64,000 bases of DNA from an uncultured Selenomonadales bacterium (lineage in GTDB: Bacteria > Bacillota > Negativicutes > Selenomonadales > Selenomonadaceae): positions 62,001 through 126,000 of the forward strand of contig CAMZHX010000001.1 in NCBI GenBank assembly GCA_947307055.1. Reading direction: 5' to 3'. The notes below the pieces were generated by a model. It did not search any database. It was not told the DNA's origin and saw only the letters and a program-made list of their open reading frames with translations. Positions 6,962 to 25,494 of the stretch are shown here, piece after piece. How positions within the stretch are numbered: position 1 is the stretch's first letter; each line of letters starts with the position of its first letter. Made by a program: the position numbers and the translations under genes.

Positions 6962-7279
6962 CTATCCCGCATACAAAATCACCTCGTCTTGCTGAATCTC
7001 TGCCAAAAATTTTTTATCCGAAATTCCATAGCTCACTAAATCTACGTGGCAACCGAATTCTCCTTCCAAATCGTAAATGAAGTCTATATAATCAAATGCG
7101 CTTTTAATCTTCCCTTTTTTTTTCGCAATCGGCACCGCTTTTGCTCGAATCTCTTCCAGCGTGTAAACCTTATCGTCCTTGCCCTCGCGCAAAATTTCTT
7201 TCGCCGCCGCCAAAATTTTTTCTAAGGCGTCTTCGGTCGCGTTGTCCAGCAAGTCTATTATATCAGCTCTCGTACTCAT
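6962..7279 (-). pseudogene. MNT-type nucleotidyltransferase with its catalytic core deleted
   Basis: The frame is open for 105 residues from ATG 7279, which has GGAGG six bases upstream. The C-terminal part (KGKIKSAFDYIDF, HVDLVSYGISDKKFLAEI, QQDEVILY) matches the tail of small MNT-domain antitoxin nucleotidyltransferases. The YTLEEIRAKAVPIAKK segment matches their start. The intervening strand-turn that should carry the GSxARGEA and DxD catalytic residues, about 30 residues, is absent, so IAKK joins directly to KGKIK. The first 35 residues form an unrelated helical segment. I read it as an in-frame internal deletion. It may still be expressed, but it cannot be an active nucleotidyltransferase. 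Confidence 0.5.
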
Positions 7280-7350
7280 TGCCGCCTCCGAATTAAATCG
7301 TTGCATTTCTTCTCGCGGCTAATTTCTATCAAAAGTATTTATTTCCTGCA

Positions 7351-7710
7351 TTACTTCCATTTATTCTCGCCACCGACGAAATTATTATCGTCGTCCCAAT
7401 CGCCCGGCATACCCTTAGCGAAAATAACGGGCTTAGTAGAATTATCCTGCACGAACTTTGCGACGGTGCCGAGCGTTTCGGAATCAAAACCGCCGAAGCC
7501 GCGATTGCCCATGACGATTAAATCAAAATCACCCTGCGCGGTGTTGGAATTGTCGTAGAAAATGCCGACAGGCGCGGATTCGCCATTGTAAAAATTTTTC
7601 TCAAGTCCTTGCGGCAGATAAATCACGGCGTCGGCCTCGTCGCGGTAAAAAAGTTCGTCGGTATTGGCGGGCACATTCAAAATCGCCTTGACGCTCCGCG
7701 TGACTGCCTT
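7351..7710 (-). pseudogene. Fused fragments: ABC-2 permease periplasmic segment and universal-stress-protein tail
   Basis: The frame encodes two unrelated scraps in succession. The first (DEADAVIYLPQGLEKNFYNG, SAPVGIFYDNSNTA) resembles the extracytoplasmic domain of ABC-2 type permeases (YbhR/YhgE-like), where a V/I-x-L/I-P-x-x-F-E pattern is typical. The second (FDLIVMGNRGFGGF, LGTVAKFVQDNSTKPVIF) resembles the C-terminal nucleotide-binding signature of UspA proteins. Neither is complete and no start codon with a ribosome binding site precedes them. The frame overlaps the HlyD fragment upstream, consistent with deletion joints. Assignment is by motif resemblance only. Confidence 0.45.
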
Positions 7711-7922
7711 AAGTCTGCGAAGCCTGGAGCTTGCGTCAAAAGTCGGATTGTTCCGCGCACTTTTTTATTATCGGCGACCGTTTGACAAATTATTTCGTCG
7801 CCCTCGCGCAGATTGACTGCTTGTTCCTCCGAAAGGTATATGTCGTAGTAAACGCGCTTTGATTCGAGCAAAATTACCGGCGCGTTTGGAGAAATCATTT
7901 CGCCTTGTTTCTCATAGTTGCA
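7677..7922 (-). pseudogene. HlyD-family membrane fusion protein fragment
   Basis: About 80 residues remain of a periplasmic adaptor subunit. The pieces GEMISPNAPVILLESKRVYY, SEEQAVNLREGDEI and VRGTIRLLTQAPGFADL match the barrel-sandwich/beta-barrel junction of HlyD/YbhG-like adaptors. The N-terminal membrane anchor and hairpin are missing, an upstream in-frame stop precedes 7922, and after FADLR the frame turns into non-homologous sequence and stops. HlyD adaptors and ABC-2 permeases are commonly adjacent, so this and the next fragment are probably the collapsed remains of one export operon. Confidence 0.6.
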
Positions 7923-8041
7923 TCATCTAGTTGAGATTTTTGCCCATTTTATCAAATCAGCGGCGGACAATGTAATAGATGCTCAAAATTTTTATAATAT
8001 GTTGGAGTGTCAAAAATATGTTTACAAAAAAGTGGCGACAA

Positions 8042-8070
8042 TTGACATAACAAAAATTTGTTAGTATTTT
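8042..8070 (+). promoter_or_regulatory. Sigma-70-type promoter for the glycerophosphotransferase cluster
   Basis: TTGACA (8042-8047) and TATTTT (8065-8070) are separated by 17 bases, about 130 bases before the first gene. A further TATAAT stands at 8154-8159 without a well-spaced -35 box. The rest of 7926-8201 is AT-rich and holds no gene that I can support. Confidence 0.55.
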
Positions 8071-8201
8071 GCACATAGGACAAGAGAATTTGACAAGAAG
8101 ATCTTGTTTACTCGCCCATTTGCCCGAATAATTTCTTGAAAAAAATCTCTAGCTATAATATAATTTGCCCGTATTAAGGCAAAATGTTTTTGGAGGTAAC
8201 G

Positions 8202-10556
8202 ATGGCGAAAGTAAATGTTGTAATGATTGTTTTGAACGCAGAATTTTTAGAACGCGCAATACAAAATTTAAATTTCGACAGAGCAAATTTGGCAACGATA
8301 ATAATGGATGGCGACGAAAAATTTGTTCATATCGAAGAAAAAAATTTTCCGGTGAATTCTTTTGCTGATGTTTTGAAAACCGTCAAAAAATATAAGGATT
8401 TTATTTGGCTGATAGTCGGTTATAAGAAAAGTATCGACGACATTTTGAAGATGAAAAAATTTTTGATGTCGTTCGACGTAAGCGAGAAAAATATTGTCAA
8501 CTTTGAAATGCCTGAACAAACTTCTCTGTCGTGGCTTGCCAATTTGCGTTACATTGAAAAGCACGGCGCAGATTTTTTTGCAACGGGCGATAAGCATACT
8601 CAAAATGGTTTAAATTTGGATTTTATTCCTTGTGTTTACGAGAATAAGAATTTCGCGAGAGGCGGAGTAAACCTTGCTTATCCCAAACAAGATTTGCAAC
8701 AGAGTTATTTGACGGCCAGATATGTTTTCAATCACGTCATACCCGGTACGATTAAATTTGTTCTTATCGGGCTTACGCCGGATTCATTTCGTCGCGACAA
8801 CGGCAAAAATTTTTTCGGCTTCCGCCAATTTCTTTCGCTTGCAACAACTGCCGCGCAACCAGATCTAAATTTCGAGACGGTAAAAATTTCCTACAAGCGC
8901 AAATTTTCATTAAAGGCAGCAGTCGATTGGAAGGATAATCAAAAAATTTTGCCGGAAGACGCGGTCGAAAAAAATATCCAGATTCTCAAGGACTACATAG
9001 AGCTTTGTCTTGCTAACGGTGCGAAACCTATTGGGCTAGTTTTTCCGTTTACGTTGCTCATGCATAAAACTTTCGACGAAGAAGTTTTGAAAAGGTTCCG
9101 CGAAACAATTCGCCAACTTGAAGAAGATTACGACTTCATGTGCGTTGATATGTTCGACCTTGAATTTGGTTATCATCGTTTTCAAAATATGACGTATTTA
9201 AACATGGAGGGTAGGCGCGCTGCCAATGCCGTTCTTTCCATGAAACTTTACACTCGCAAACTTCTTCCCATTGAAAATTTCCTCGACATGGACTACAATT
9301 CTTTTGGTGCTCTGGCGCGCTTTATTCCCAAAAATGACTACAACACATTTATAGAGCGCGTATTAAATATTTCTGTGCAAAGGATTCGCCGCAAAGATAA
9401 AATTAAAATTGCTTTCGTGACGCTTGAAGCGGCGCAATGGTGTGGAGAAGATTTATATAATTTCTTTGCTTGCGATAAACGTTTTGAAACTACCGTTTTT
9501 TTGTCTATAGATTTTCATAAGGAAATAAATGAACTTATCATGGACGATTTCCAACGCGGCATTGAACAATTTAGACAGCATGGAATAAATATTGTTGCTC
9601 TGGATAATAAAGAAGATATTGTTCCCGAACAAGATATATTTATCTTTTTGACGCCTTATCTTTCTTGGTTACCCTACATGTTTTTACCTTCAAAAATAAC
9701 GCCTAAAACTTTGTTTGTCCACGTTCCCTATGCCTTTGACTCCGCCTTACATAATGACGAATTTTACAGCAAAATTCTTTTTATAGTCGGTTGGAAAGTT
9801 TTCTTTTCTTCAGTGCCCGGTCTTAAAATTTACGAAGAAAAATCCATTGTCGGAATGCCCCGAGGAGTTTACAGCGGCTATCCTAGAATGGATATTTTCT
9901 TTGATAAAAACGCAAAACTTGAATTCAATTGGAAAATAACCCGCCCTGATGCGAAAAAAATTATTTGGGCTCCTCATCATTCCATAAAAGGCGGGCCGGC
10001 AATTAAATACGCAACTTTCCAATGGAACTACCGATTTATGTACGAATTTGCAAAAGCCCACCCCGAAACGTCTTGGGTAGTCAAGCCACACCCGATGTTA
10101 CTTTATACCTCTGTTACTGAGGGAGTTTTTCCTACGGTCGAAGCTTTCAAAAAATATCTGCAAGCCTGGGACGATTTGCCCAACGCGCAAGTTTACACCG
10201 GTGCTTATTATCAAAATATCTTCGCAACTAGTGACGGCATGATTCATGACAGTGCTTCATTCATCTCCGAATATCAATTTGCGAACAAACCTATGATTTA
10301 TTTGACTCGCGATACCCAGTGGCATAATGAATTAGGCAAAGCAATTTTAAATGTATCATATCTTGTTGACGGGCAGGATTTGGACGGAATTGCTGCGACC
10401 ATTCAAAAAGTTTTTATTGAAGGCAACGATTACAAAGCCGCCGAACGTAAAAAAATTTTCGATAAATATCTCAACTATTTCAAACATAATGGTATGTTGG
10501 CTAGCAAATTTATTTACAAGAGCATTGTCAGCAAATTGAAGAAACGCAAACATTGA
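8202..10556 (+). CDS. Bidomain SGNH-like / CDP-glycerol glycerophosphotransferase-like protein, copy 1
   Basis: First of four tandem paralogs. Residues 1 to about 390 form a domain with NLAYPKQDLQQSYLTARYVF, FVLIGLTPDSF and NGAKPIGLVFPF segments, resembling surface-polysaccharide SGNH-hydrolase-like proteins. In this copy the terminal D-x-T-H-like block reads NMTYLN (near 329), so the Asp-His pair is lost. Residues from about 400 form a GT-B domain of the TagF/CDP-glycerol glycerophosphotransferase type: APHHS near 588, VVKPHP near 627, MIHDSASF near 680 and NKPMIYL. No membrane segment or signal peptide is evident. Start ATG 8202 has GGAGG five bases upstream. The expected role is transfer of glycerol phosphate to a surface glycan; the substrate is unknown. 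Confidence 0.7.
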   Translation: MAKVNVVMIVLNAEFLERAIQNLNFDRANLATIIMDGDEKFVHIEEKNFPVNSFADVLKTVKKYKDFIWLIVGYKKSIDDILKMKKFLMSFDVSEKNIVNFEMPEQTSLSWLANLRYIEKHGADFFATGDKHTQNGLNLDFIPCVYENKNFARGGVNLAYPKQDLQQSYLTARYVFNHVIPGTIKFVLIGLTPDSFRRDNGKNFFGFRQFLSLATTAAQPDLNFETVKISYKRKFSLKAAVDWKDNQKILPEDAVEKNIQILKDYIELCLANGAKPIGLVFPFTLLMHKTFDEEVLKRFRETIRQLEEDYDFMCVDMFDLEFGYHRFQNMTYLNMEGRRAANAVLSMKLYTRKLLPIENFLDMDYNSFGALARFIPKNDYNTFIERVLNISVQRIRRKDKIKIAFVTLEAAQWCGEDLYNFFACDKRFETTVFLSIDFHKEINELIMDDFQRGIEQFRQHGINIVALDNKEDIVPEQDIFIFLTPYLSWLPYMFLPSKITPKTLFVHVPYAFDSALHNDEFYSKILFIVGWKVFFSSVPGLKIYEEKSIVGMPRGVYSGYPRMDIFFDKNAKLEFNWKITRPDAKKIIWAPHHSIKGGPAIKYATFQWNYRFMYEFAKAHPETSWVVKPHPMLLYTSVTEGVFPTVEAFKKYLQAWDDLPNAQVYTGAYYQNIFATSDGMIHDSASFISEYQFANKPMIYLTRDTQWHNELGKAILNVSYLVDGQDLDGIAATIQKVFIEGNDYKAAERKKIFDKYLNYFKHNGMLASKFIYKSIVSKLKKRKH

Positions 10557-10582
10557 CGGAAATATTTTTGGGAGGTTTTAAT

Positions 10583-12928
10583 TTGGATAAAATAGATGTT
10601 GTGCTGGTGGTTTTGAACAAGAAATTTTTAAATCGCGCAATACAGAGTTTGAATCTCGAAAAAGTGAATCTTGAAACGATAATCGCGGACGGTGCCGGGA
10701 AAAATTTTCAGTTCGAGGACAAACAATTTCCTGTAACTTCTTTCGCAAATGCGGCCAGAATTATGGAAAAGTATCAAGATTTTATTTGGCTGATTGTCAG
10801 CTACGAAAAGGGTAACGCCGATGTCTTGAAGATTAAAAAGTTTTTGATGTTGTCCGACGTGAAGGAAGAAAATATCGTCAACTTCGGCTTGGCCTCTAAA
10901 ATTTCTCCGACGTGGCTCGCCAATTTGCGTTACATTGAGGAAAATGGCGCGGATTTTTTTGCGACGGGTAATAAACATACGCGGGACAATTTAAATTTAA
11001 AATATATTCCTAGCGTGAACGCGGATAAAAATCTTGCAAAAGGCGGAGTGAATCTCGCTTATTCCAACCAGGATTTGAGCCAGAGCTACTTGACGGCAAA
11101 ATATGTTTTCGAGCACGTCGAGCCGAACACGATTAAATTAGTGCTAATCGGCCTCACTCCCGATTCTTTTCACCGCGATAACAGCAAAAATTTTTTCGGT
11201 TTCCAATACATTTTCTCTTTAGCGGCGACTGCGGAAAAACCGGATTTAAATTTCAACGCGGTAAAGAAAAGTATTGGCAATAATTTTTCAGTCGAAGCGG
11301 TAATTAATTGGGAGGACGAGAAGAAAGTTTTGCCGACCGACTTTGTAGAAAAAAATATTCAGATTCTCAAAGATTACATAGAACTTTGCCTTGCTAATGG
11401 AGCTAAACCTGTCGGGGTAGTTTTACCTTTCGCGCCGATTGCACGTAAAAATTACGACGCGGAAGTTTTGAAAACTTTTCGTGAAACAATTCGCTCGCTC
11501 GAAGAAAATTACGATTTTATGTGCGTCGATATGTTTGAAAATCTCGACTACGATTCTTTCGGCGATATGACGCATTTAAATTTGGGCGGCTCAATATCAA
11601 TTCATTCTTTGTTTGCCATGAAACTTTATGAGCGCAATCTCATTCCCATTGAAAGTTTCCTCGATATGAAGTATGAATATTTCAGGCGGCTGTCGTGGAC
11701 TGCGCCCAAAGAAAATTACAATCCTTTTATGGAGCGCGTTTTCAAAGCTTCCGCGCAGAACATTCGCGGCAAAGAGAAAATTAAAATCGGCTTTGTGATT
11801 TACGAGGTGGCGCAATGGAGCGGCGACGCGTTATACAATCTTTTCGCCAATGACGAGCGATTCGAGACGACAATTTTTTTATGCCTGCAAGTTTTTATGG
11901 CCGATAACGAACTTGTCCGAAAAGATTTTTTGCATGGCGTCGAGCAATTCAAATCGCATGGTTTGAACGTGGTCGCGTTAGAAGAACGAGATGCCGAAGT
12001 TCCAGAACAAGATGTGCTCATCTACTTGACGCCTTATTTTAATACTCTGCCGATTTCCCTCCGTTTCTTAAACATGACCCCCAAAACTTTGACAGCGTAT
12101 ATCCCTTATTCTTTTGACATAGCGTTAAGTGTAAATTCTTATTATAATTTTGATATCATGCGCATTGCGTGGAAGGTTTTCTTGTCGTCAGCTATCAGTT
12201 TGGAACTTTATAAGGAAAACTCCACGATTGATTTACCGCAAGGAATTTTCAGTGGCTATCCGCGAATGGACATTTTCTTTGAGAAAGATAAAAAATTTAA
12301 GTTTGAATGGAAAATGGCACAACCCGACGCAAAAAAAATTATTTGGGCACCGCATTGGTCGATAAGAGGTACTTCAAATGTCAGATACGCAACGTTTCAT
12401 TGGAATTATAAATTCATGTACGAATTTGCCAAAGCGCATCCCGAAACATCTTGGGTAGTCAAGCCGCACCAAGCGTTATTTTTCTCGACCGTCAATGAAA
12501 AAATTTTTCCGTCCGTTGAGGCTTTCAAAGAATATCTGCAAGCTTGGGACGACCTTCCCAACGCGCAAGTTTTCACAGGGACTTACTATCAAGAAATTTT
12601 TGCCACTTCCGACGCCATGATTCAAGACAGCGGTTCTTTTATCGCCGAATATCAATTTGTGAACAAGCCGATGATTTTCTTGACACGCAATGGCGAAGTT
12701 TTCAACGAATTGGGCAACGAGATTTTAAAAACTTCCTACCTTGTCGACGGAAGAAATTTTAACGCAATCACCGAGGCGATTCAGAAAATTATTATCGAGG
12801 GCAACGACGACAAGGCCGCCGAGCGCAAGGAAATTTTCGACAAGTATCTCAACTATCCCGAATATAACGGCATGTTAGCGAGCGAATTTATTTATAAGAA
12901 CATTGGCGACGAGATTTTGGAGAGATAG
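10583..12928 (+). CDS. Bidomain SGNH-like / CDP-glycerol glycerophosphotransferase-like protein, copy 2
   Basis: Second paralog, 781 residues. The TTG start at 10583 is chosen because GGAGG (10571-10575) stands 7 bases upstream; the open frame reaches back into copy 1 but without a ribosome binding site. The N-terminal domain keeps the DMTHLN block near residue 328 and the VNLAYSNQDLSQSYLTAKY segment. The C-terminal GT-B domain has drifted at three conserved places: APHWS instead of APHHS, KPHQ instead of KPHP, and MIQDSGSF instead of MIHDSGSF. These positions belong to the family's active-site pattern, so this copy may have altered or lost transferase activity. It lies 26 bases after copy 1 and two bases before copy 3. 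Confidence 0.7.
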   Translation: MDKIDVVLVVLNKKFLNRAIQSLNLEKVNLETIIADGAGKNFQFEDKQFPVTSFANAARIMEKYQDFIWLIVSYEKGNADVLKIKKFLMLSDVKEENIVNFGLASKISPTWLANLRYIEENGADFFATGNKHTRDNLNLKYIPSVNADKNLAKGGVNLAYSNQDLSQSYLTAKYVFEHVEPNTIKLVLIGLTPDSFHRDNSKNFFGFQYIFSLAATAEKPDLNFNAVKKSIGNNFSVEAVINWEDEKKVLPTDFVEKNIQILKDYIELCLANGAKPVGVVLPFAPIARKNYDAEVLKTFRETIRSLEENYDFMCVDMFENLDYDSFGDMTHLNLGGSISIHSLFAMKLYERNLIPIESFLDMKYEYFRRLSWTAPKENYNPFMERVFKASAQNIRGKEKIKIGFVIYEVAQWSGDALYNLFANDERFETTIFLCLQVFMADNELVRKDFLHGVEQFKSHGLNVVALEERDAEVPEQDVLIYLTPYFNTLPISLRFLNMTPKTLTAYIPYSFDIALSVNSYYNFDIMRIAWKVFLSSAISLELYKENSTIDLPQGIFSGYPRMDIFFEKDKKFKFEWKMAQPDAKKIIWAPHWSIRGTSNVRYATFHWNYKFMYEFAKAHPETSWVVKPHQALFFSTVNEKIFPSVEAFKEYLQAWDDLPNAQVFTGTYYQEIFATSDAMIQDSGSFIAEYQFVNKPMIFLTRNGEVFNELGNEILKTSYLVDGRNFNAITEAIQKIIIEGNDDKAAERKEIFDKYLNYPEYNGMLASEFIYKNIGDEILER

Positions 12929-12930
12929 AA

Positions 12931-15357
12931 ATGGAAAAAGCAAATGTTGTGATGATTGTTTTGAACAGGGAATTTTTGTACAACGCTATACAAAATTTAG
13001 ACCTCGACAAGGCTAATTTGAAAACGTTAATCATGGACGGAGATTGGAAATTTCTTCAGGTTGGCGAAACAAAATTTCCTGTGACTTCCTTCGCAAATGC
13101 TCCGAAAATTATCAAAACCTACAAAAATTATGTTTGGTTAATTGTCGGTCATGAAAAAGGTATCGGCGACGTTCTGAAGATGAAAAAATTTTTAATGTCG
13201 TTCGACGTGAAGGAAGACAACATAGTCAACTTTGAAATGGACGGACAAATCTCTTCGACCTGGCTTGCCAATTTGCTTTATATCGTGAAACGCGGCGCGG
13301 ATTTTTTCGCGACAGGCAATGAGTATATACGCGACAATTTGGATATGAAATTTATTCCGCGTGCGAACGCAAATAAAGAACTCGCAAAGGGGGGAGTAAA
13401 TCTCGCCGATGTCAAACAGGATTTGCAACAGAGTTATTTGACGGCAAAATTTATTTTCAATCACGTTGCGCCCGGCACAATTAAATTTGTGTTAATCGGG
13501 CTCACTCCTAATTCCTTCCGCTACGACAACGCCAAAGATTTTCCACACTGCGGAAAAAATTTTCAATACGCGGCGTCTCTTAATTCTTACCAAAATGCTC
13601 ATGATATTATGTTGCGAAATTTAATCAGCGATGAAGTCAAAAAATTTTTCGTGATAACTTTGGAGCAAGCGGATTTAAATTTCGACGCGCTAAAAAAATC
13701 TTTTAATGAATTCTCCGTTAAGGCAGTAAGCGATTGGGAAGACGAGCCGAAAATTTTGCCGGAGAATTCAGTCGAAAAAAATATTCAGATTCTTAAAGAC
13801 TACATTAAGCTTTGTCTTGCCAATGGCGCGAAACCTGTCGGGGTAGTTTTCCCGTTCGCGCCGATTGCTCGAAAAAATTACGACGCGGAACTTTTGAAAA
13901 GTTTTCGTGAGACAATTCGTCAACTTGAGGAAAATTACGACTTTACTTGTGTTGATATGTTCGAAAAGCTCGGCTACGATTGTTTTAGCGATATGACGCA
14001 CTTGAATTCCAACGGCACAATATCGACGCATTCCCTGCTTTCTTTGAAACTTTGCAAGCGCGATTGCCTTCCCGTCGAAAGTTTCCTTGATATAAATTAC
14101 GAATATTTTTACAGGTTGGCATGGGCTGCAAGCAAAGATGAATATAATGCTTTGCTGGAACAAATTTTCAAAGTCTCTATGCAGAAAATTCGTCGCAAAG
14201 ATAAAATCAAAATTGGATTTACTATGGTCGAGGCGGCTCATTGGTGCGGAAAAGATTTATACGATTTGTTTGCAAATGATGAACGTTTTGAGACGAGCGT
14301 TTTCTTGTGCAGGGATTTCAGCAAACCCGCAAACGCCGTTGTAAAAAAAGATTTCTGGCACGGCGTAGAGCAACTGGAATCGCACGGAATAAAAGTTATT
14401 GCTGTGGACGACAGAAACGCCGCCATTCCCGCTCAAGATGTACTTATATATTTATCGCCATATGTTAAGCGTTTTTCCAAATTTTTTCAATTTAGCAACG
14501 TCACGCCAAAAACTCTTGTAGTTCACATTCCCTACGGCTTTGATTCATCTTACCATATAAAAGTTTTTTACAGCGGAATAATTTTTCTCACTCTCTGGAA
14601 AGTTTTCTTTTCTTCGCTCATAACCTTCGACATTTACAAGAAGAAATGTGTAATCGGTGCGCCGCGTGGACTTTACAGCGGCTATCCCAGAATGGACGTT
14701 TTCTTTAAAAGCAACACGAAATTTCACTTCGATTGGAAAATGGCACGTCCCGACGCAAAAAAAATTATTTGGGCTCCTCATCATTCCATAGTTGGCGACG
14801 ACTCTATCAGGTACGCGACATTTCATTGGAATTATAAATTCATGTACGAGTTCGCCAAAGCGCACCCGGAAATTTCTTGGGTAGTCAAGCCGCATCCTTG
14901 GTTGCTTTATACGGCGGTGCGTGAAAAAGTTTTTCCTTCAACTAATGCTCTCCAAAAATATCTGCAAAGATGGAACGAACTTCCCAATGCAATGGTTTAT
15001 ACGGGAGCTTATTATCAAGAAATTTTTGCCACCTCGGACGGCATGATTCATGATTGCGGTTCTTTTACCGCTGAATATCAATTTGTCGATAAGCCGATGA
15101 TTTACTTAACTCGCGACACGCAAAAATTTAACGAGCTCGGCGAAGAAATTTTGAAAGTGTCTTATCTTGTCAACGGAAAAGATTTTAAAGGAATTGCCGC
15201 GATTATGCAAAAAGTTTTTATCGAGGGCAACGACGATAAAGCCGCAGAGCGTCGAAAACTTTTCGATAAATATCTCAACTACCCGAAAGCTAACGGCATG
15301 TTGGCTAGCGAATTCATTTACAAGAGCATTGCTGACGAGTTCAAAGAAGATAGTTGA
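12931..15357 (+). CDS. Bidomain SGNH-like / CDP-glycerol glycerophosphotransferase-like protein, copy 3
   Basis: Third and longest paralog, 808 residues. It has an extra block of about 27 residues (NSYQNAHDIMLRNLISDEVK) after the GLTPNSF segment that the other three lack. The N-terminal domain ends with DMTHLN, so the Asp-His pair is intact. The C-terminal domain keeps APHHS and VVKPHP but reads MIHDCGSF, with Cys in place of the Ser of copies 1, 2 and 4. The start ATG 12931 lies two bases after the copy 2 stop, with GGAGAG upstream. Its last 130 bases are almost identical to copy 4, unlike the rest of the gene. Confidence 0.7.
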   Translation: MEKANVVMIVLNREFLYNAIQNLDLDKANLKTLIMDGDWKFLQVGETKFPVTSFANAPKIIKTYKNYVWLIVGHEKGIGDVLKMKKFLMSFDVKEDNIVNFEMDGQISSTWLANLLYIVKRGADFFATGNEYIRDNLDMKFIPRANANKELAKGGVNLADVKQDLQQSYLTAKFIFNHVAPGTIKFVLIGLTPNSFRYDNAKDFPHCGKNFQYAASLNSYQNAHDIMLRNLISDEVKKFFVITLEQADLNFDALKKSFNEFSVKAVSDWEDEPKILPENSVEKNIQILKDYIKLCLANGAKPVGVVFPFAPIARKNYDAELLKSFRETIRQLEENYDFTCVDMFEKLGYDCFSDMTHLNSNGTISTHSLLSLKLCKRDCLPVESFLDINYEYFYRLAWAASKDEYNALLEQIFKVSMQKIRRKDKIKIGFTMVEAAHWCGKDLYDLFANDERFETSVFLCRDFSKPANAVVKKDFWHGVEQLESHGIKVIAVDDRNAAIPAQDVLIYLSPYVKRFSKFFQFSNVTPKTLVVHIPYGFDSSYHIKVFYSGIIFLTLWKVFFSSLITFDIYKKKCVIGAPRGLYSGYPRMDVFFKSNTKFHFDWKMARPDAKKIIWAPHHSIVGDDSIRYATFHWNYKFMYEFAKAHPEISWVVKPHPWLLYTAVREKVFPSTNALQKYLQRWNELPNAMVYTGAYYQEIFATSDGMIHDCGSFTAEYQFVDKPMIYLTRDTQKFNELGEEILKVSYLVNGKDFKGIAAIMQKVFIEGNDDKAAERRKLFDKYLNYPKANGMLASEFIYKSIADEFKEDS

Positions 15358-15415
15358 AAAATTTTCTTCTCTAAAATATAATATCTAGAGATTTTATGAT
15401 TTTTGAGGTGGATAT

Positions 15416-17761
15416 ATGGAAAAAGTAAATGTTGTATTAGTCGTTTTGAATAGGGAATTTTTGGATAGTGCTCTGAACAATTTAGATTTCGATAAAGTAA
15501 ATTTGAGCGCAATTTTTATGGACGGTGGCGACGAAACTTTTCCGTTCGGCGACAAAAAAATTCCCGTTAACTCATTCGCGCTCATTCACAAGGAGATGAA
15601 ACTGTACAAGGATTTTGTGTGGCTGATTTGCGGTTACGTGAATGACGTCGACGACGTTTACAAAATGAAACGTTTTTTAATGACGTTCGACATAAGCGAA
15701 GACAATATCATCAACTTTGAAATGGTCTTAAAAATGTCCCCGACGTGGCTTGCTAATTTGCGTTACATTGAAAAGAACGGTGCGGATTTTTTTGCAACGG
15801 GTAATGAATGCGCTCAGAACAATTTAAATCTAAATTTTATTCCTCGCGTAAATGTCGGTAAAAATCTCGGCGGAGTAAATCTTGCCGATTCCTATCAAAA
15901 TTTGCGTCAAAGCTATCTGACGGCAAAACATGTTTTCGAGCACGTTGCGCACGGCACGATTAAATTTGTCCTCATTGGACTTACGCCGGATTCTTTCCGC
16001 AATGACAGCGAAGAAGTTTTCTTTAATTCTCGCAGTGTCTTTTCTTTTGCTAAAGCCGCCGCGCAACCGGATTTAAATTTTAACAATATAAAGGCTACCA
16101 AAAATAACGAATTCTCCGTAAGAGCCGCAATCGATTGGAATGACGTAAAATCCTTTTCGACCGTTGCTTTTGAAAAAAATGTCGAGGTTCTCAAAAACTA
16201 TATTGAACTTTGCCTTGCTAACGGTGCCAAACCTATCGGAATAGTTTTTCCTGTCGCGCCCGCTTTAAGAAAAATTTACAACAAAAAACTTTTGACCACT
16301 TTCCGCAAAACAATTCACCAACTCGAAGAAAATTACGACTTTGCTTGCGTCGATACATTCGGAATCAATCTTAAATACGATTGTTTCTCCAATATGACGC
16401 ATTTAAACTTAAGAGGTTCCTTGTTCACAAATTCTTTTCTCGCCTTCGAACTCTACAAGAAAAATCTCATTCCTTTAGAGAGCTTTTACGAAATGAATTA
16501 TGATTATCTTGATAATATGCTAAAGCTTTTGGGCGAAGACGAGACAAATGAGCTGATGGAACGTATTTTTGAGATGTCTATTCAAAAGATTCGGCGCAAA
16601 GACAAAATTAAAGTCGGCTTCGTGCTTTATGATTCGTCAATGTGGTGTGGTGACGACTTGTACAATTTTTTTGCCGCTGACAAGCGATTTGAGCCAACGG
16701 TTTTCCTATCATTGCGAATGGACAAGGCCGATAGGGAACTTACAAGAAAAGATTTCCTGCACGGCGTTGAACAATTTAAATCACATGGTTTAAACGTCGT
16801 TGCTCTGAGCGATATAAATGACTTTGTTCCTGAGCAAGACATACTTATTACGTTGACCTATTTTTTCTTGCGTTTATCCAATGCTTTTCATATTGAAAAC
16901 TTGACGCCAAAAACTTTGCTAGTTCATATGCCCTATTCATTTACCGTATCGAGCCATAAAAAAGGTTTTTACAGCAAAAATCCTATCTTCAATATCAACT
17001 GGAAGATTTTCTTTTCTTCGGTTTTCACACTCAATCTTTATAGTAAGAATAACATTTGCGGAATGCCACGTGCTTTTTTCAGCGGTTATCCTAAGCTTGA
17101 TGTTTTCTTTGAGAAAAATGCAAAGTTAGAGTTTGAATGGAAAATGGCTCGTCCCGACGCAAAGAAAATTATTTGGGCACCGCACCATTCCATAAAAGGC
17201 ACCTCAAATGTCAAATATGCAACCTTTCAATGGAATTATCAATTCATGTACGACTTTGCTAAGGCGCATCCGGAAACATCTTGGGTAGTCAAGCCGCACC
17301 CAAATTTACTTTTCACGGCGGTAAGTCAAAAAATTTTCCCGTCTATCGAAGCTTTCAAAAAATATTTGCAGAAATGGGATGACCTTCCCAATGCACAAGT
17401 TTATACCGGAGCTTATTATCAAGCAATTTTCGCCACTAGCGACGGCATGATTCACGACAGCGGCTCTTTCATTGCCGAATACCAATACGTTGATAAACCC
17501 ATGATTTATTTAACCTGTGATAGTCAAAATTTTAACGATCTTGGTAACGAAATTTTAGGCGTCTCCTATCTCGTCGACGGAAAAGACTTGGACGCAATCG
17601 CTGCGCTTATGCAAAAAGTTTTCATAGACGGCAACGACGATAAAGCCGCAGAGCGTCGAAAACTTTTCGATAAATATCTCAACTACCCGAAAGCTAACGG
17701 TATGTTGGCGAGCGAATTCATTTATAAGAGCATCGCTGACGAGTTTAAGGAGGAAACTTAA
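15416..17761 (+). CDS. Bidomain SGNH-like / CDP-glycerol glycerophosphotransferase-like protein, copy 4
   Basis: Fourth paralog, 781 residues, ATG 15416 with GAGGTGG upstream. The N-terminal domain reads NMTHLN where copies 2 and 3 read DMTHLN, so the Asp is replaced while the His stays. The C-terminal domain has the full set: APHHS, VVKPHP, MIHDSGSF and KPMIYL. A 57-base gap separates it from copy 3 and contains a TATAAT-like box, so it may have its own transcription start. Its TAA stop overlaps the ATG of the cytidylyltransferase gene (TAATG), tying the two products together. Confidence 0.7.
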   Translation: MEKVNVVLVVLNREFLDSALNNLDFDKVNLSAIFMDGGDETFPFGDKKIPVNSFALIHKEMKLYKDFVWLICGYVNDVDDVYKMKRFLMTFDISEDNIINFEMVLKMSPTWLANLRYIEKNGADFFATGNECAQNNLNLNFIPRVNVGKNLGGVNLADSYQNLRQSYLTAKHVFEHVAHGTIKFVLIGLTPDSFRNDSEEVFFNSRSVFSFAKAAAQPDLNFNNIKATKNNEFSVRAAIDWNDVKSFSTVAFEKNVEVLKNYIELCLANGAKPIGIVFPVAPALRKIYNKKLLTTFRKTIHQLEENYDFACVDTFGINLKYDCFSNMTHLNLRGSLFTNSFLAFELYKKNLIPLESFYEMNYDYLDNMLKLLGEDETNELMERIFEMSIQKIRRKDKIKVGFVLYDSSMWCGDDLYNFFAADKRFEPTVFLSLRMDKADRELTRKDFLHGVEQFKSHGLNVVALSDINDFVPEQDILITLTYFFLRLSNAFHIENLTPKTLLVHMPYSFTVSSHKKGFYSKNPIFNINWKIFFSSVFTLNLYSKNNICGMPRAFFSGYPKLDVFFEKNAKLEFEWKMARPDAKKIIWAPHHSIKGTSNVKYATFQWNYQFMYDFAKAHPETSWVVKPHPNLLFTAVSQKIFPSIEAFKKYLQKWDDLPNAQVYTGAYYQAIFATSDGMIHDSGSFIAEYQYVDKPMIYLTCDSQNFNDLGNEILGVSYLVDGKDLDAIAALMQKVFIDGNDDKAAERRKLFDKYLNYPKANGMLASEFIYKSIADEFKEET

Positions 17762-18180
17762 TGACAATAGGTTACACGACGGGTGTTTACGACCTCTTCC
17801 ACATTGGGCATTTAAATTTGCTGAAAAATGCTAAGGGGCTTTGCGACAAGTTGATTGTCGGCGTGACAGTCGATGAGCTTGTCAAGTACAAGCACAAACG
17901 CGCCATTATCCCCTTCGAGGACAGATTGGAAATTGTCCGCTCAATCAAATACGTTGACGCGGCGATTCCTCAAGAAGACATTGACAAGTTCGCGGCGTGG
18001 GAAAAGCTTAAGTTCGACATTCTCTTTGTCGGCGACGATTGGTACCAGTCGGATAGTTGGCAGGCTATGGAAGAAAAATTTAAGCGCGTCGGCGTCAAAG
18101 TGGTTTACTTTCCCTACACGAAGGGCGTCAGCTCGACCGTCATAAGCAAAGCTTTAAATTTGGTTAGGGAGATTGATTGA
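17761..18180 (+). CDS. tagD: Glycerol-3-phosphate cytidylyltransferase (TagD/TarD-like)
   Basis: This 139-residue cytidylyltransferase would make CDP-glycerol from CTP and glycerol 3-phosphate. It shows the nucleotidyltransferase HIGH motif in TTGVYDLFHIGHLNLL, a KHKRAIIPFEDRLEIV segment, FVGDDW and a TKGVSSTVI motif corresponding to the RTxGISTT loop. Length matches TagD. GGAGG lies 9 bases before the ATG, which overlaps the preceding stop. Its coupling to copy 4 supports CDP-glycerol as donor for the four transferases. A related activated alcohol (for example CDP-ribitol precursors) cannot be excluded. Confidence 0.85.
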   Translation: MTIGYTTGVYDLFHIGHLNLLKNAKGLCDKLIVGVTVDELVKYKHKRAIIPFEDRLEIVRSIKYVDAAIPQEDIDKFAAWEKLKFDILFVGDDWYQSDSWQAMEEKFKRVGVKVVYFPYTKGVSSTVISKALNLVREID

Positions 18181-18182
18181 GT

Positions 18183-19223
18183 ATGTTTGACAAAAATTTC
18201 TGCATGAGCTCCTATCTTGCGTTCAGGTACATTGAGCGCGACGACATGGATTTTTTCGAGGGACTTCACCACAGAAATATCGCACCGGTTAAGCCGGAAG
18301 ATAAAATCAAAGTTTCTTCTGCCGATGACATTGACGCGGCGATTGAGAAAAATTTTCCCAAGTTGCGCGGCAAGAAACTTGGCTTGATGTTGTCAGGCGG
18401 CATGGACTCGGCAAATTTGGCGGCGTACATGATTGGTTGCGACGCTTACACGTTCAGATTTTTGGACGGCAACTTTCAAAGCGACGAGCTTGAGCGGGCT
18501 AAGTATTATGCCAAAACTTACGGCTTGAAACTTCATTACGTCGACATAAATTGGCAGGCGATTGAGCCGCATGTTGACCCCCTCTTGAAAAATAAATGTG
18601 CGCCCGTTCACTCAATCGAGCCTCAACTCCTCGCGGCGGCCGAGCAGGCTAAAGCTGACGGCGTAGAAATGCTCATCGTCGGCGAGAGTAGCGATTTAAT
18701 TTTCGGCGGCATGGATAAACTTTTGGCGCAAGATTGGAACTTCGACGACTTCGCTAAGCGTTACACCTTCCTGAATCCTGCCGACGCTTTGAAGAATCCC
18801 GTTGACATGAGTTATCTTTTTGAGCGTTATCGTCAAGGCGACAAAATCAATTTCTTGACTTTTATGGACGATGTTTTTTCCATTGAAAGTTCGAGCTCTT
18901 ACTTGAATGCCTTTGAGACCGCGCAGATTGATTACTTTGACCCATATGCAAATTTGGTTATGGCGGAGCCGCTTGACTTGCAGCGCGTCCGCAACGGCGA
19001 GCCAAAATATTTGATTCGCGAGCTGTTCGCTAAAAAATATCCGAACTACCCGATTCCCGATAAAGTTCCGATGCCGCGTCCAGTTGATTTTTATTTTGCC
19101 GATTGGCAGGGACCGACTCGTCCGGAGTTCAAAAAAAATCTCGACATGAAAAAATTCACAGGCAATCAAAAGTGGCAACTTTGGTGCCTAGAAAGATTTT
19201 TAAATCTTTTTGAACCGTTGTAA
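18183..19223 (+). CDS. PP-loop ATP pyrophosphatase, asparagine-synthase-like, without glutaminase domain
   Basis: The 346-residue protein has the adenylation signature LMLSGGMDSANLAAY near residues 75-90 and an IVGESSDLIFGGMDKLL segment, as in the synthetase half of class B asparagine synthetases. The N-terminal Ntn-type glutaminase domain with its catalytic Cys is absent, so it would need free ammonia, a partner, or a different amine. The start is either ATG 18183 or TTG 18177 (GGGAG at 18167-18171 fits both); the latter overlaps the tagD stop. Being last in the cluster, it may amidate or otherwise activate a carboxyl group on the same surface polymer. That role is inference. Confidence 0.7.
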   Translation: MFDKNFCMSSYLAFRYIERDDMDFFEGLHHRNIAPVKPEDKIKVSSADDIDAAIEKNFPKLRGKKLGLMLSGGMDSANLAAYMIGCDAYTFRFLDGNFQSDELERAKYYAKTYGLKLHYVDINWQAIEPHVDPLLKNKCAPVHSIEPQLLAAAEQAKADGVEMLIVGESSDLIFGGMDKLLAQDWNFDDFAKRYTFLNPADALKNPVDMSYLFERYRQGDKINFLTFMDDVFSIESSSSYLNAFETAQIDYFDPYANLVMAEPLDLQRVRNGEPKYLIRELFAKKYPNYPIPDKVPMPRPVDFYFADWQGPTRPEFKKNLDMKKFTGNQKWQLWCLERFLNLFEPL

Positions 19224-19284
19224 ATTTTTATCGAGAAAAACTTTAAACGTTAATTCTGTTTCCTCAAGCGTAATGAACATTTTC

Positions 19285-19313
19285 TTGAAAAGTTTATGGA
19301 CGTATGATATATT
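19285..19313 (+). promoter_or_regulatory. Promoter of toxin copy A
   Basis: TTGAAA (19285-19290) and TATATT (19308-19313) are separated by 17 bases. Both boxes are conserved in unit B although spacer bases differ. Predicted leader to the toxin start is about 55 bases. Confidence 0.65.
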
Positions 19314-19374
19314 TAGTGTGGCAGGCAGTTCGATGCGTCGGCTTACCTTCCTCGGAAGAAGGGAGGTGACGCGT

Positions 19375-19461
19375 ATGGATTTTCTTGACTGGATTGACCT
19401 TGCGTCTAACGTCGGAACGTTCATCATTGCGTTGCTGACATTCTTCAAAGATAAAAAGTAA
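19375..19461 (+). CDS. Putative type I toxin, small hydrophobic peptide, copy A
   Basis: A 28-residue peptide begins MDFLDWIDLASNVGT, continues with a FIIALLTFF membrane helix and ends in a charged KDKK tail. It resembles holin-like/Fst-type toxins, which insert in the inner membrane and depolarise it. GGGAGG stands 8 bases before the ATG. The longer upstream frame is only the leader read through. The 3' end overlaps the terminator of a predicted antisense RNA, the arrangement known for type I toxin-antitoxin loci. The peptide is identical to copy B. Confidence 0.65.
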   Translation: MDFLDWIDLASNVGTFIIALLTFFKDKK

Positions 19462-19559
19462 GCCGTAAAACGTACGGCACCAAACTCGCGTAAATATTAA
19501 CCGAGGAAGGAGCCGACGGGATCAACATCGACACCTGCCATTAAAATTGTCTTTTTGAC
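19452..19559 (-). ncRNA. Predicted antisense antitoxin RNA, copy A
   Basis: A minus-strand promoter TTGAAA (19589-19594) with TATTAT (19566-19571) and 17-base spacing points into the toxin gene. About 80 bases on, a perfect hairpin (GCCGTA 19462-19467 with TACGGC 19473-19478) is followed on the minus strand by TTACTTTTTA, a somewhat interrupted terminator. The transcript would overlap the toxin 3' end and its downstream region. It also contains a 14-codon ORF (19497-19541). Confidence 0.5.
19497..19541 (-). other. 14-codon ORF inside predicted antisense RNA A
   Basis: The minus strand reads MAGVDVDPVGSFLG and then TAA. A-rich AAAAGACAATTTTA precedes the ATG, a weak ribosome binding site. Unit B encodes the same peptide with Ser for the second Asp. 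It may be coincidental conservation within the duplication. Confidence 0.25.
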
Positions 19560-19618
19560 TCCAAGATAATATCACGGCTGGAAGAAATTTTCAAGCCTCA
19601 AGCGCAATGAATATTTCC

Positions 19619-19647
19619 TTGAAAACTTTATGGACATATGATATATT
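19619..19647 (+). promoter_or_regulatory. Promoter of toxin copy B
   Basis: TTGAAA (19619-19624) and TATATT (19642-19647), 17 bases apart, at the same place as in unit A. Confidence 0.65.
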
Positions 19648-19708
19648 TATTGCGGCAGGCAGTTCGATGCGTCGGCTTACCTTTCTCGGAAGAAGGGAGG
19701 TGGCGCGT

Positions 19709-19795
19709 ATGGATTTTCTTGACTGGATTGACCTTGCGTCTAACGTCGGAACGTTCATCATTGCGTTGCTGACATTCTTCAAGGATAAAAAATAA
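19709..19795 (+). CDS. Putative type I toxin, small hydrophobic peptide, copy B
   Basis: Identical in sequence to the 28-residue peptide of copy A: an amphipathic start, one membrane helix and a KDKK tail. GGGAGG precedes the ATG by 8 bases. It is preceded by a conserved promoter and leader and followed by the hairpin of the antisense RNA. Retention of two identical reading frames, while leader and downstream bases differ, argues that the peptide is under selection or the duplication is recent. Confidence 0.65.
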   Translation: MDFLDWIDLASNVGTFIIALLTFFKDKK

Positions 19796-19892
19796 GCCGT
19801 AACCACGGCTCCGAAAATCGCTTAAAGTATTAACCGAGGAAGGAGCCGACGGGACTAACATCGACGCCTGCCATTAAAATTGTCCTTTTGAC
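19786..19892 (-). ncRNA. Predicted antisense antitoxin RNA, copy B
   Basis: Minus-strand promoter TTGAAA (19922-19927) and TATTAT (19899-19904) have 17-base spacing; the -35 box overlaps the stop codon of adenine deaminase. The terminator is AGCCGT (19795-19800) paired with ACGGCT (19805-19810), then TATTTTTT on the minus strand, a good rho-independent signal. The expected RNA is about 105 nt and overlaps the toxin stop codon. Compared with unit A the stem bases differ but pairing is kept. Confidence 0.6.
19830..19874 (-). other. 14-codon ORF inside predicted antisense RNA B
   Basis: The minus strand reads MAGVDVSPVGSFLG then TAA, with AAAGGACAATTTTA before the ATG, a plausible ribosome binding site. 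Compare the copy in unit A. Whether it is translated is unknown. Confidence 0.3.
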
Positions 19893-19923
19893 GCCAAAAT
19901 AATATCACGACTGGAAGAAATTT

Positions 19924-21666
19924 TCAAGCCTCAAGCGCAATGAAATTAAAGCTATCGTAGTCGAAGAGCCCGCGCGCCGTCAATTTTATTTCGGGGATAA
20001 CTGGCAACGACATAAAAGTTAGCGTCATAACCGGTTCGACTTCCTTGCTGATTCCTAATTCGGCGTGCGCTTTTTCGTGAAGGGCATCGAGTTTTTCTTT
20101 GAGCTCCTCGCCCGTTAAGTCGCTCATTAAGCCCGCGATTAGCAACGGTATCATTGAAATAATCCTGCCGCCGTTGACTAAAACCATGCCGCCTTCCATT
20201 TTTATCAGAGCCTCGACCGCGCAGAAAATTTCATCGTTACTTGTTCCCGCCGCGATTATGTTATGCGAATCGTGCGCGACTGATACCGCAATCGCGCCGC
20301 GCTTTATTCCGTAGCCGCTCAAAAATCCCAAGCCAATTTTGCCCGTCTCATGATGACGTTCAATCACCGCGACTTTGCAAATGTCCTGCGCGGGGTCGAA
20401 AATAAAATCGCCGTCTGTGTCGCGTTTGACTTCGGCGATAATTTTTTTGCTCACGACGCCGCCCGGCAAAATTTTTATCACATTGACTTTGCTACTCGTC
20501 AAATGCATTTTCAAGCGGTCGACGGAAAAATTTTTAACCCTGACGCTGCCGCGCACACTCGAAATATCAGCGGGAATAATTTTGGGCAGATACTTCCCAT
20601 TTTCCGCAACGAGCTCACCGCCTATCCAAACTCTATCGACGTGGAAATTTTCTAGGTCATCGAGCAAAACTAAATCGGCATGTCCTCCGATAATTATCGC
20701 GCCCCTGTCGTAAATTCCAACCGACTCCGCAGCATTCACCGTCGCAAGTTGAATCGCCGTTATCGGGTCAAGCCCTTCCGCGATGCACTTTCTTATATCT
20801 TTATCAATGTGGCCGAGTTCCAAAATAGTTTTCGGCTGGCAATCGTCCGAGCAAAGTAAAACGCGGCGGCTGTTCGTAGGCGTCACGCCCTTAATCAAAG
20901 TCTTCAAGTCGTGGCACGCCGAGCCCTCGCGAATCAAAACATACATTCCCTTTGCAATGCGTTCGTGCATTTCCTCTACGGTCGTGCATTCATGGTCGCC
21001 GCCGATGCCCGCGCTCATGTAAGCGTTGAGACTTTTGCCAGTCAACTTCGGCGCGTGCCCGTCAATCAGCTTGCCTAATTTCTGCGCGAGCAAAATTTTA
21101 TCCAAAGCTTTATCGTCGCAGTTGATAATGCCGGGCGCGTTCATGAATTCGCCAAGCCCAAAAATATTTTCGTCGCCGAGAAGTTCTTCCATGTCCGCCG
21201 CCTCAATCACTGCGCCCGCGTCCTCAAAAGGCGTCGCAGGTACGCAACTAGGCATAGCGTAAACGATATTAAGTTTGGTACGCGTTGCGGCGTCGAGCAT
21301 GTAACGAATACCGCGCAGTCCGCAGACATTTGCTATTTCGTGTGGGTCAGCGATAATCGTCGTGGTGCCGTGCGGAACAATTATCCTGCCGAGCTGTTCG
21401 GGGCTTATGTAGGAGGATTCAATATGGATATGCCCGTCGATAAAGCCAGGCGCAAGATATTTCCCGCCCGCGTCGAAAATTTCCTTGCCGTCGTATTCAG
21501 CGTCGCCCATGCCGATAATTTTCCCGTCGTAAATCGCGACCTCGCCCAAAGTAATTTCGCCGCTCAACACGTTGACAATCCGACAATTTTTAATCACGAG
21601 GTCGGCTTTGATTCTGCCCGCCGCCGCCGAGATTAAATTACGCAATAAACTTTTCCCTTCTCCCAT
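19924..21666 (-). CDS. ade: Adenine deaminase (Ade/YerA type)
   Basis: This amidohydrolase converts adenine to hypoxanthine and ammonia for purine salvage. The metal-binding GFIDGHIHIESSYISP segment, the PHGTTTIIADPHEIANVCG segment, LGEFMN, IDGHAP and LCSDDCQP motifs are all present, followed by the typical C-terminal domain. The open frame extends into the permease gene, so the true start is ATG 21666 (580 residues) or TTG 21645; both lie in a GGGAAAAGGG repeat that also supplies the ribosome binding site. It lies 15 bases after the permease stop. The last codons are duplicated in the neighbouring toxin-antitoxin repeat. Confidence 0.92.
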   Translation of the reverse strand: MGEGKSLLRNLISAAAGRIKADLVIKNCRIVNVLSGEITLGEVAIYDGKIIGMGDAEYDGKEIFDAGGKYLAPGFIDGHIHIESSYISPEQLGRIIVPHGTTTIIADPHEIANVCGLRGIRYMLDAATRTKLNIVYAMPSCVPATPFEDAGAVIEAADMEELLGDENIFGLGEFMNAPGIINCDDKALDKILLAQKLGKLIDGHAPKLTGKSLNAYMSAGIGGDHECTTVEEMHERIAKGMYVLIREGSACHDLKTLIKGVTPTNSRRVLLCSDDCQPKTILELGHIDKDIRKCIAEGLDPITAIQLATVNAAESVGIYDRGAIIIGGHADLVLLDDLENFHVDRVWIGGELVAENGKYLPKIIPADISSVRGSVRVKNFSVDRLKMHLTSSKVNVIKILPGGVVSKKIIAEVKRDTDGDFIFDPAQDICKVAVIERHHETGKIGLGFLSGYGIKRGAIAVSVAHDSHNIIAAGTSNDEIFCAVEALIKMEGGMVLVNGGRIISMIPLLIAGLMSDLTGEELKEKLDALHEKAHAELGISKEVEPVMTLTFMSLPVIPEIKLTARGLFDYDSFNFIALEA

Positions 21667-21681
21667 TTCCCTTTTCCCTTT
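21650..21681. repeat. GGGAAAAGGGAAATGGG-type purine repeat at the ade start
   Basis: Minus strand GGGAAAAGGGAAATGGGAGA and following AGGGAAAAG. The same simple motif occurs at 27887-27935, 45541-45570, 47637-47652, 56774-56807 and 62035-62112. Here it forms the translation start of ade. Confidence 0.6.
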
Positions 21682-23042: not shown

Positions 23043-23146
23043 AGATGATTCCTTTCTTTAGTTGGATTTAGAAAGGATTTTACACGAAAAGTTTTTCTAA
23101 GTCAAAAAGCAACGCGACTTTGTAACTGCGTGACGACTCGATTACA

Positions 23147-23950
23147 TTAGCTGATTTTGTTTTCTAAGAAGATGACCGCCGCGCAGATTGCAATCACGAA
23201 TGCCGCCGCGTAAAAATCTAAGCTCGTAAGGCGAAGTTGTTTCATATGCGTTCGCCCTTCGCCGCCACGATAACAGCGCGCTTCCATTGCCATTGCTAAA
23301 TCATCTGCCCGCCGAAAACTCGACAAAAATAACGGAACCAATATCGGCACCATTGAACGCAATCTTTTTAGCAAGCCGCCCGAATTGAAGTCTAGCCCAC
23401 GCGATTTTTGCGCCTTGATTATTTTGTCGGTCTCCTCAAGTAGCGTCGGCACAAATCTTATCGCTATCGTCATCATCATCGCCAGTTCATGCGAAGGCAC
23501 GCCAAATTTTTTCAGCGGCGATAAAAGTTTTTCGGTTGCGTCGGTCAATTTAAGCGGCGAGGTCGTGAACGTCAGCAAACTTGCCAAAATTATCAGCAAA
23601 ACCAATCGCAAAGATATTTTCACGCCGTAGAGGATTCCTTCGGTCGTCACTTTGAACACGTAGAATTTTGCTATGACTTCGCCGTCGTGGCTCACGAAGT
23701 GAATCAGCAATGTAAATAAAATTATCCAACTCAGCGGCTTGACGGATTTTAAAACGGTCAGCGGCGGCACTTTCGACAAAAAAATTAGCCCCGCCGTCAA
23801 AATCGTCAGCAAAAAATATCCTTCCCAACTTTCCGCCGCGAAAATTAAAATCATCAGCGCGAATAGCAAAATTATTTTCGTGCGCGGGTCTAGCCGGTGC
23901 AAAATCGATTGTCCTGGAAAAAATTGTCCGAGCGTTATATTTTGTAACAT
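23147..23950 (-). CDS. ecfT: Energy-coupling factor transporter transmembrane protein EcfT
   Basis: EcfT is the scaffold of ECF vitamin/metal importers and links substrate-binding EcfS proteins to two ATPases. The 267-residue protein has five or six hydrophobic segments, HRLDPRTKI near the start, and the two coupling-helix signatures AQKSRGLDF and AMEARCYRGG that contact the ATPases. The usual ecfA1-ecfA2 genes are not beside it in this window; upstream is an unrelated glycosyltransferase. They may be elsewhere, or this may be a dedicated CbiQ-like component. Confidence 0.88.
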   Translation of the reverse strand: MLQNITLGQFFPGQSILHRLDPRTKIILLFALMILIFAAESWEGYFLLTILTAGLIFLSKVPPLTVLKSVKPLSWIILFTLLIHFVSHDGEVIAKFYVFKVTTEGILYGVKISLRLVLLIILASLLTFTTSPLKLTDATEKLLSPLKKFGVPSHELAMMMTIAIRFVPTLLEETDKIIKAQKSRGLDFNSGGLLKRLRSMVPILVPLFLSSFRRADDLAMAMEARCYRGGEGRTHMKQLRLTSLDFYAAAFVIAICAAVIFLENKIS

Positions 23951-23958
23951 TTATCCCC

Positions 23959-25398: not shown

Positions 25399-25494
25399 AA
25401 AAAATTCCTCCTTTGCTCGAAAATTTTAAGCAGGGAGGTTTAATTCGTCAAGCGGATTGGTTATAATGGGAAAAATTTTAGGAAGGTGAGCGAT

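Follow-up and report, generated by a model that had tools for sequence, protein, structure and literature searches.

Four tandem putative pseudo-SGNH phosphotransferases accompany a candidate amidated-donor cassette in a rumen Selenomonadaceae bacterium

Introduction

TagF/TarF/TarL and the TagF-like capsule polymerases and transition transferases, such as Cps7A and CgoT, belong to the PF04464 family, and the cytidylyltransferases TagD and TarD, members of the PF01467 superfamily with an HxGH motif, are partners of PF04464 transferases. The same partnership occurs in a rumen bacterium of the Selenomonadaceae, in a 64,000-nucleotide stretch of DNA (positions 62,001 to 126,000 of contig CAMZHX010000001.1; hereafter the window), where the open reading frames (ORFs) at 8202-19223 of the + strand comprise four tandem genes for proteins of about 780-808 residues (GT1 to GT4), followed by a gene for a TagD-like cytidylyltransferase (CTase) and then one for an asparagine-synthetase-like (AS-like) enzyme. 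A sequence-only reading of the window had reported this arrangement, with four transferase genes of one architecture and a glutaminase-less AS-like gene, and we confirm it here. Unlike the described transferases, GT1 to GT4 are fused to a domain that is probably a catalytically dead SGNH domain (pseudo-SGNH) and have no visible WHG motif, and the CTase departs from TagD/TarD in falling below the equivalog cut-off, in one of its motifs and in its linkage to the AS-like gene.

Two further systems bear on the chemistry that we propose. The Caulobacter CTP:phosphoglycerate cytidylyltransferase CpgD makes cytidine diphosphate (CDP)-glycerate, the product class that we suggest for the window CTase (stated in part of PMC12275187), and favours 2-phospho-D-glycerate (stated in parts of PMC12275187 and of the preprint PMC13228409); it serves a sphingolipid head group, and these parts report no amidation. 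D-Glyceramide 2-phosphate, the tag chemistry proposed here, is a substituent of the Providencia alcalifaciens O22 O-polysaccharide, according to part of PMC6222762. Our literature search, which covered titles and abstracts and few subscription papers, found, among the papers listed, no description of the CTase/AS-like/transferase triplet or of an SGNH/phosphotransferase fusion; PMC10434189 was considered as a description of the triplet and rejected because, in the available portion of that paper, the terms stand in separate gene lists. Nor did the papers listed yield biosynthetic genes for Providencia O22 (PMC9491580 lacks the terms sought), and for glyceramide phosphate, whose structure is known, the literature searched describes no biosynthetic route.

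Results

The window CTase falls short of TagD

The CTase (17761..18180, + strand) matches PF01467 with 84 bits. Against the TagD equivalog model TIGR01518, however, it reaches 94.3 bits, under the cut-off of 165.4, and five further CTases (four relatives and a fusion protein of genome G140, described below) miss the same cut-off with 64-111 bits. Genuine TagDs of the same genus pass it, with 206.6 bits in G170 and 204.6 bits in G117, both in clusters with sister transferases, and the score against 1coz is 196.5 bits for the G170 TagD compared to 70 for the window CTase. Window-type CTases carry the motif PYTKG(V/I/T)SST where 1coz and 2b7l have RTEGISTT (PYTKGVSST in the window, PRTEGISTT in 1coz). 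Both CTase types are encoded in a single cluster of G170, where each has its own transferase gene immediately before it. These comparisons show that the window CTase belongs, by its sequence, to a subfamily distinct from TagD, and because it misses the TagD cut-off while the same genus has genuine TagDs, glycerol is not the best guess for its substrate.

Other CTase arrangements were seen in passing. A CTase is fused to a GFO/IDH/MocA oxidoreductase, as judged by Pfam, in L060:4548-8616 and L081:12412-13761, and L059 is grouped likewise; in L060 the genes after the fusion encode an Asp/Glu racemase-like protein, a HAD phosphatase and an NTP-transferase, with an SGNH transferase beside them, and loci of this type probably make another CDP-linked tag. 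Proteins of 741 and 774 residues (L062:5746-7971 and L063:6652-8976) combine a C-terminal CTase, 42-47% identical, with a long N-terminal part, for which L062 has no Pfam match, and lie in islands of low G+C.

The CTase is paired with an AS-like enzyme

The AS-like enzyme (18183..19223, + strand; alternative TTG start at 18177) matches PF00733 with 59.9 bits (cut-off 21), and a profile of the family finds AsnB (1ct9, E 1.9e-8) in the PDB, where the single sequence has no match. The PP-loop and GExxD...GG motifs, which we take to have the roles that they have in asparagine synthetase, are common to AsnB and the AS-like enzyme (SGGMDS and GESSDLIFGG in the window); of 13 aligned members 12 preserve them, L081 having GDxxD. 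Unlike AsnB, the window enzyme (346-348 residues, depending on the start) has no match to the N-terminal glutaminase domain (39 of 267 bits with TIGR01536), and the AS-like enzymes form two subfamilies that are about 40% identical.

An AS-like match is present in 18 of 66 genomes of the genus, and in 16 of these an intact window-type CTase lies directly upstream; the remaining two are G136, in which the CTase is broken, and G086, with an 80-position fragment. The CTase of G128 is 0.6 kb from the AS-like gene, with an AS-like fragment in between. Counted from the other side, window-type CTases (at least 66% identity) occur in 19 genomes and adjoin an AS-like gene in all except G092, G125 and G170, and in G140 the two enzymes form a single ORF of 487 residues (PF01467 at 5-128, PF00733 at 207-334). 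Outside the genus a CTase relative lies within 2 kb of the AS-like gene in eight of the eight loci viewed (G025, G027, G329, G616, G673, G686 and two in G604), a set that leaves out matches in G062, G087 and G239; the relative in G329 is 44% identical to the window CTase, and in G616 the two genes are on opposite strands. All six Lactiplantibacillus plantarum plasmids with an AS-like gene also have a CTase (65-66% identical), and the CTase match reaches a gene with the annotation CDP-glycerol glycerophosphotransferase family. The two plasmids viewed have the order PF04464 transferase, CTase, AS-like gene and then flippase within a polysaccharide locus; upstream of the cassette, one of them shows Wzz, CpsD and CpsB. 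No further biosynthetic gene was seen in common between these two loci and the window cluster. In wider searches the AS-like gene was found in 3 of 398 genomes of the phylum (counting the host genome and one weak partial match), in 5 of 150 genomes of the family of G329 and in 22 of 189 of the host's own family, and a phage collection held no relative.

Two side observations concern the AS-like gene. A 705-residue ORF of G153 (L058:3079-5196) joins AS-like domains from two subfamilies, one 74% and the other 41% identical to the window enzyme, and may be a two-step or heterodimeric enzyme. In two loci of the family of G329 (L104:6547-7755 and L107:3307-4509) a protein of about 400 residues is encoded 3' of the AS-like gene, and that of L107 matches DUF362 with 103 bits.

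The sequence-only reading had proposed a glycerol-phosphate pathway with possible amidation. The gene set does resemble a system for CDP-activated phosphotransfer with a putative amide-forming enzyme; the equation with TagD did not survive, with 94 of 165 bits for the CTase against 206.6 and 204.6 for genuine TagDs, and the amide-forming enzyme is not a loose extra, being tied to the CTase by the G140 fusion and the plasmid cassette. The glycerol version would have the CTase make CDP-glycerol, GT1 to GT4 add glycerol phosphate and the AS-like enzyme amidate another part of the glycan, for example a uronic acid. It can draw on TagD and TarD as the top-scoring named relatives of the CTase, on the PF04464 membership of GT1 to GT4 and on a sister transferase that adjoins a genuine TagD, yet the CTase lies far under a cut-off that two genuine TagDs of the genus exceed, the AS-like gene tracks the window-type CTase and has no match in G170 and G117, the two genomes in which genuine TagDs were seen, and CTase and AS-like enzyme are fused in G140. 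We consider this version unlikely.

An amidated CDP-linked acid is the favoured product

We tentatively favour, at a little under an even chance, a reading in which a single amidated acid, activated as its CDP derivative and most likely derived from phosphoglycerate, is both produced and consumed by the locus. A CTase other than TagD, its synteny and fusion with an amide-forming enzyme and the lack of any other biosynthetic gene seen in common together point to a carboxylated phosphate that is activated and amidated. Because the window and the two plasmid loci were not seen to share a further biosynthetic gene, this phosphate should be a central metabolite, and phosphoglycerate fits best because D-glyceramide 2-phosphate and CDP-glycerate both exist in bacteria. 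The CTase would join CTP to a carboxylate-bearing phosphate of central metabolism, most likely 2- or 3-phosphoglycerate, to give CDP-X; the AS-like enzyme would adenylate the carboxylate and turn it into an amide, drawing on free ammonia or on a donor in trans, and the product would be CDP-glyceramide, for instance, with the amide on X rather than on a sugar; and GT1 to GT4 would transfer X-phosphate to different acceptors of a cell-surface glycan, their donor half being conserved and their acceptor half diverged.

Several observations weigh against this proposal. The best named matches of the CTase are TagD and TarD, and CpgD, a member of the unrelated COG1213, is stated in parts of PMC12275187 and PMC13228409 to be without homology to TagD. 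CTase relatives at 46-57% identity stand beside a LicD or PF04464-family gene in stretches with no AS-like gene, and G108 (94% complete) has four such transferases and no CTase match at E 1e-10. In a tree of 49 transferase C-domains, which were taken from the fetched loci and not from all genomes and include some unsupported nodes (0.09), the transferases are not sorted by CTase type, and L056_7, the G170 transferase beside the genuine TagD, falls inside the clade of GT1 and GT3, so sister transferases may use CDP-glycerol. At one locus of G604 (C18), finally, an aminotransferase of the HisC/CobD kind lies between the CTase and the AS-like gene and suggests an amine-bearing substrate there.

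This aminotransferase is also an argument for X being the phosphate of an amino alcohol, ethanolamine phosphate for instance, in which case the AS-like enzyme would join the amine to an adenylated acid and so acylate X. The absence of a glutaminase domain from the AS-like enzyme is in keeping with such a reaction, and the window CTase has human ethanolamine-phosphate CTase as its third match in the PDB, with 68.5 bits compared to 70 for TagD; we rate this alternative lower because the 68.5 bits are a sum over two domains, of which the better scores 44.6. The aminotransferase, moreover, occurs in one locus only, and neither the window cluster nor either of the two plasmid loci viewed showed an amine-making gene, which makes an amino alcohol an improbable substrate in our estimation.

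GT1 to GT4 join a probable pseudo-SGNH domain to a remote PF04464 relative

GT1 (8202..10556), GT2 (10553..12928; true start probably a TTG near 10583, from alignment), GT3 (12931..15357) and GT4 (15416..17761), all on the + strand, share one architecture. Their C-terminal halves had been read as TagF relatives, and profile comparisons agree with this assignment. PF04464 scores of the whole proteins are 22.1, 30.1, 27.5 and 26.7 bits at a curated cut-off of 22.1 (GT1 at the limit), in short and weak matches confined to model positions 141-353 of 367. A nine-row profile of the C-terminal half has TarL (8va1, E 2.9e-4) as its sole PDB match below E 0.1 (next 0.69), and hhalign gives 95.3% over 318 columns with nine PF04464-type proteins, five of which have Pfam scores of 150-246 bits and four of which were assigned by similarity or annotation. 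Full-length GT2 has weak matches alone in the PDB by sequence (E 0.16 or worse), and the AlphaFold model of the C-terminal half was too poor for use (mean pLDDT 47.9). Of the two catalytic histidines of TagF, the later one corresponds to that of the KPH motif, which all 32 full-length relatives retain unchanged together with the D and E of the last motif. The other lies in the TagF WHG motif, which was not seen in any of the 32; the place that we align to WHG reads (Y/H)xPY, with Tyr in 17, His in 11 and other residues in 4 of the 32, a placement that is unsure, as hhalign sets WHG elsewhere. Cps7A has Tyr instead of the WHG His of TagF, according to part of PMC11666461. On sequence similarity we place the C-terminal halves as remote relatives within the PF04464/TagF superfamily; identity as TagF polymerases would be a separate claim.

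PF04464-type halves also occur on family 2 glycosyltransferases in place of the SGNH domain (L069:4939-7359, L053:11361-13514, L068:4095-6164 and L070:4540-6795), in the vicinity of this CTase, of the AS-like gene or of SGNH transferases, and the N-terminal domain therefore appears swappable.

The N-terminal half had been described as SGNH-like, and comparison of the GT2 model with known folds recovers the SGNH fold, which PatB, DltD and TesA have in common with it, whereas the nucleophile is gone from all four copies. In block I the place of the catalytic Ser is taken by Lys, Lys, Glu and Glu in GT1 to GT4, respectively, and block V reads NxxY, DxxH, DxxH and NxxH. Residue 1 of TesA, whose nucleophile we take to be Ser10, aligns with model position 124, so that Ser10 corresponds to Lys133 of the modelled GT2 sequence if the alignment is gap-free in between; an earlier placement of block I at GGVNLA was dropped in favour of FFATGxS after comparison with stand-alone relatives and the TesA alignment. 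Because the serine is lost in four copies, the SGNH halves are probably pseudo-hydrolases, that is, catalytically dead relatives of SGNH acyl and D-alanyl transferases such as PatB and DltD; here they are fused to a phosphotransferase and probably bind or position the glycan.

The four-fold array is not peculiar to this genome. In the C-domain tree the sister of GT1 is a G108 gene (support 0.999) and that of GT3 a G148 gene (support 1.0), so at least two of the four are old paralogues; GT2 and GT4 have unsupported positions, and G108 has a four-gene array of its own at a different site. Identity among GT1 to GT4 is 67-76% on the presumed donor side and 49-55% on the presumed acceptor side, a division that follows the GT-B rule for PF04464, and GT3 and GT4 share an exact run of 71 bp near their 3' ends. 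The nearest neighbour lies in the same genome for 8, 6, 2 and 5 of 21 sequences in four regions (shuffled maxima 7, 6, 7 and 7), the first N-terminal region accounting for the 8 and the acceptor side for the 2 (shuffled mean 1.4 and maximum 7 for each). These patterns suggest, modestly, exchange between copies and diverse acceptor specificity.

Host, neighbourhood and family members at other loci

The host is a Selenomonadaceae metagenome-assembled genome (MAG) that is 88% complete, with water-buffalo gut MAGs as its closest named relatives; the presence of LpxC in a genome search bears out its earlier description as a lipopolysaccharide-bearing Firmicute. Gene ends across the cluster overlap or almost touch, the sole wider spacer being 58 bases before GT4, and G+C is 38-41% in the four transferase genes compared to 43-52% in the other window genes listed. 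Promoter-like sites, each a consensus match only at 11 of 12 positions, lie 5' of GT1 (8136..8164, + strand) and GT4 (15354..15382, + strand). Window positions 7000-26000 have no Rfam match up to E 0.1, and no teichoic-acid priming, export or anchoring genes are in the cluster itself (the rest of the window and genome was not searched).

Flagellar-looking genes, presumably FlgK-, FlgL-, FliD- and FliS-like, fill the 6.8 kb ahead of the window and positions 1-2976, and one gene among them (L038:16296-17603) matches Flagellin_N with 43.3 bits. This proximity would suit a role of the cluster in decorating flagellin, but three genes that we take to be for arginine biosynthesis, and others, intervene, sister transferases elsewhere stand beside genes that are presumably housekeeping (mreB-like, ffh/rpsP/trmD-like and others), and Wzz, CpsD and CpsB accompany one plasmid cassette in its locus; we regard flagellin as a very unlikely target.

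The host genome also has genes of the GT1 to GT4 architecture on C19 and C28 and a divergent PF04464 gene on C2. A LicD-family gene lies directly 3' of another SGNH transferase on C19 (L039:13794-14948); LicD genes are found near some other SGNH-transferase relatives, and in L064 a LicD gene immediately precedes the window-type CTase, whereas in L070 a single gene separates the two. SGNH-transferase relatives also occur near an NTP-transferase/CobD-like fusion with octopine dehydrogenase, a TagD-MocA fusion, and IspD with an epimerase. The NTP-transferase fused to a CobD-like aminotransferase was seen beside SGNH transferases in L048:7450-11378, L047, L049 and L074, to which L048 adds octopine-dehydrogenase-like and ornithine-cyclodeaminase-like genes, a set that would fit CDP-linked N-(1-carboxyethyl)ethanolamine; a legend to Proteus/Klebsiella O-polysaccharide structures mentions N-(1-carboxyethyl)ethanolamine phosphate (part of PMC9630907).

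Downstream of the cluster, positions 19262-19944 hold two tandem copies of a direct repeat of about 334 bp (95% over 207 nt and 93% over 120 nt), each encoding the same hydrophobic peptide of 28 residues (Hol_Tox 16.2 bits, below the cut-off of 23.3). Partial copies lie elsewhere in the genome, with tandem pairs on C13 and C3, and the repeat is perhaps a type I toxin-like module. A DUF4422 protein is encoded at 23959-25398, its N-terminal part of about 220 residues having no Pfam match.

Discussion

The combination of PF04464 proteins with a TagD-like gene should not automatically be taken to mean glycerol phosphate, and we find the locus more interesting as a portable amidated-donor cassette, with a putative substrate, than as a glycerol phosphate system of a diderm. 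In its widest form, which we put forward as a conjecture somewhat more apt to fail than to hold, the CTase/AS-like pair would be a portable route to a new donor, CDP-glyceramide or another CDP-linked carboxamide, which PF04464 and LicD transferases would use in Negativicutes, in a further family of the same phylum and in Lactobacillaceae, and in the rumen genus it would feed a recombining pseudo-SGNH repertoire that also draws on other CDP-linked tags. The cassette offers two candidate enzymes for a route to glyceramide phosphate, also in a tractable food bacterium. In the genus, members of a single phosphotransferase family have a wide variety of donor-making genes as neighbours. Charge, immune recognition and phage binding can all change when surface glycans carry phosphate-linked tags.

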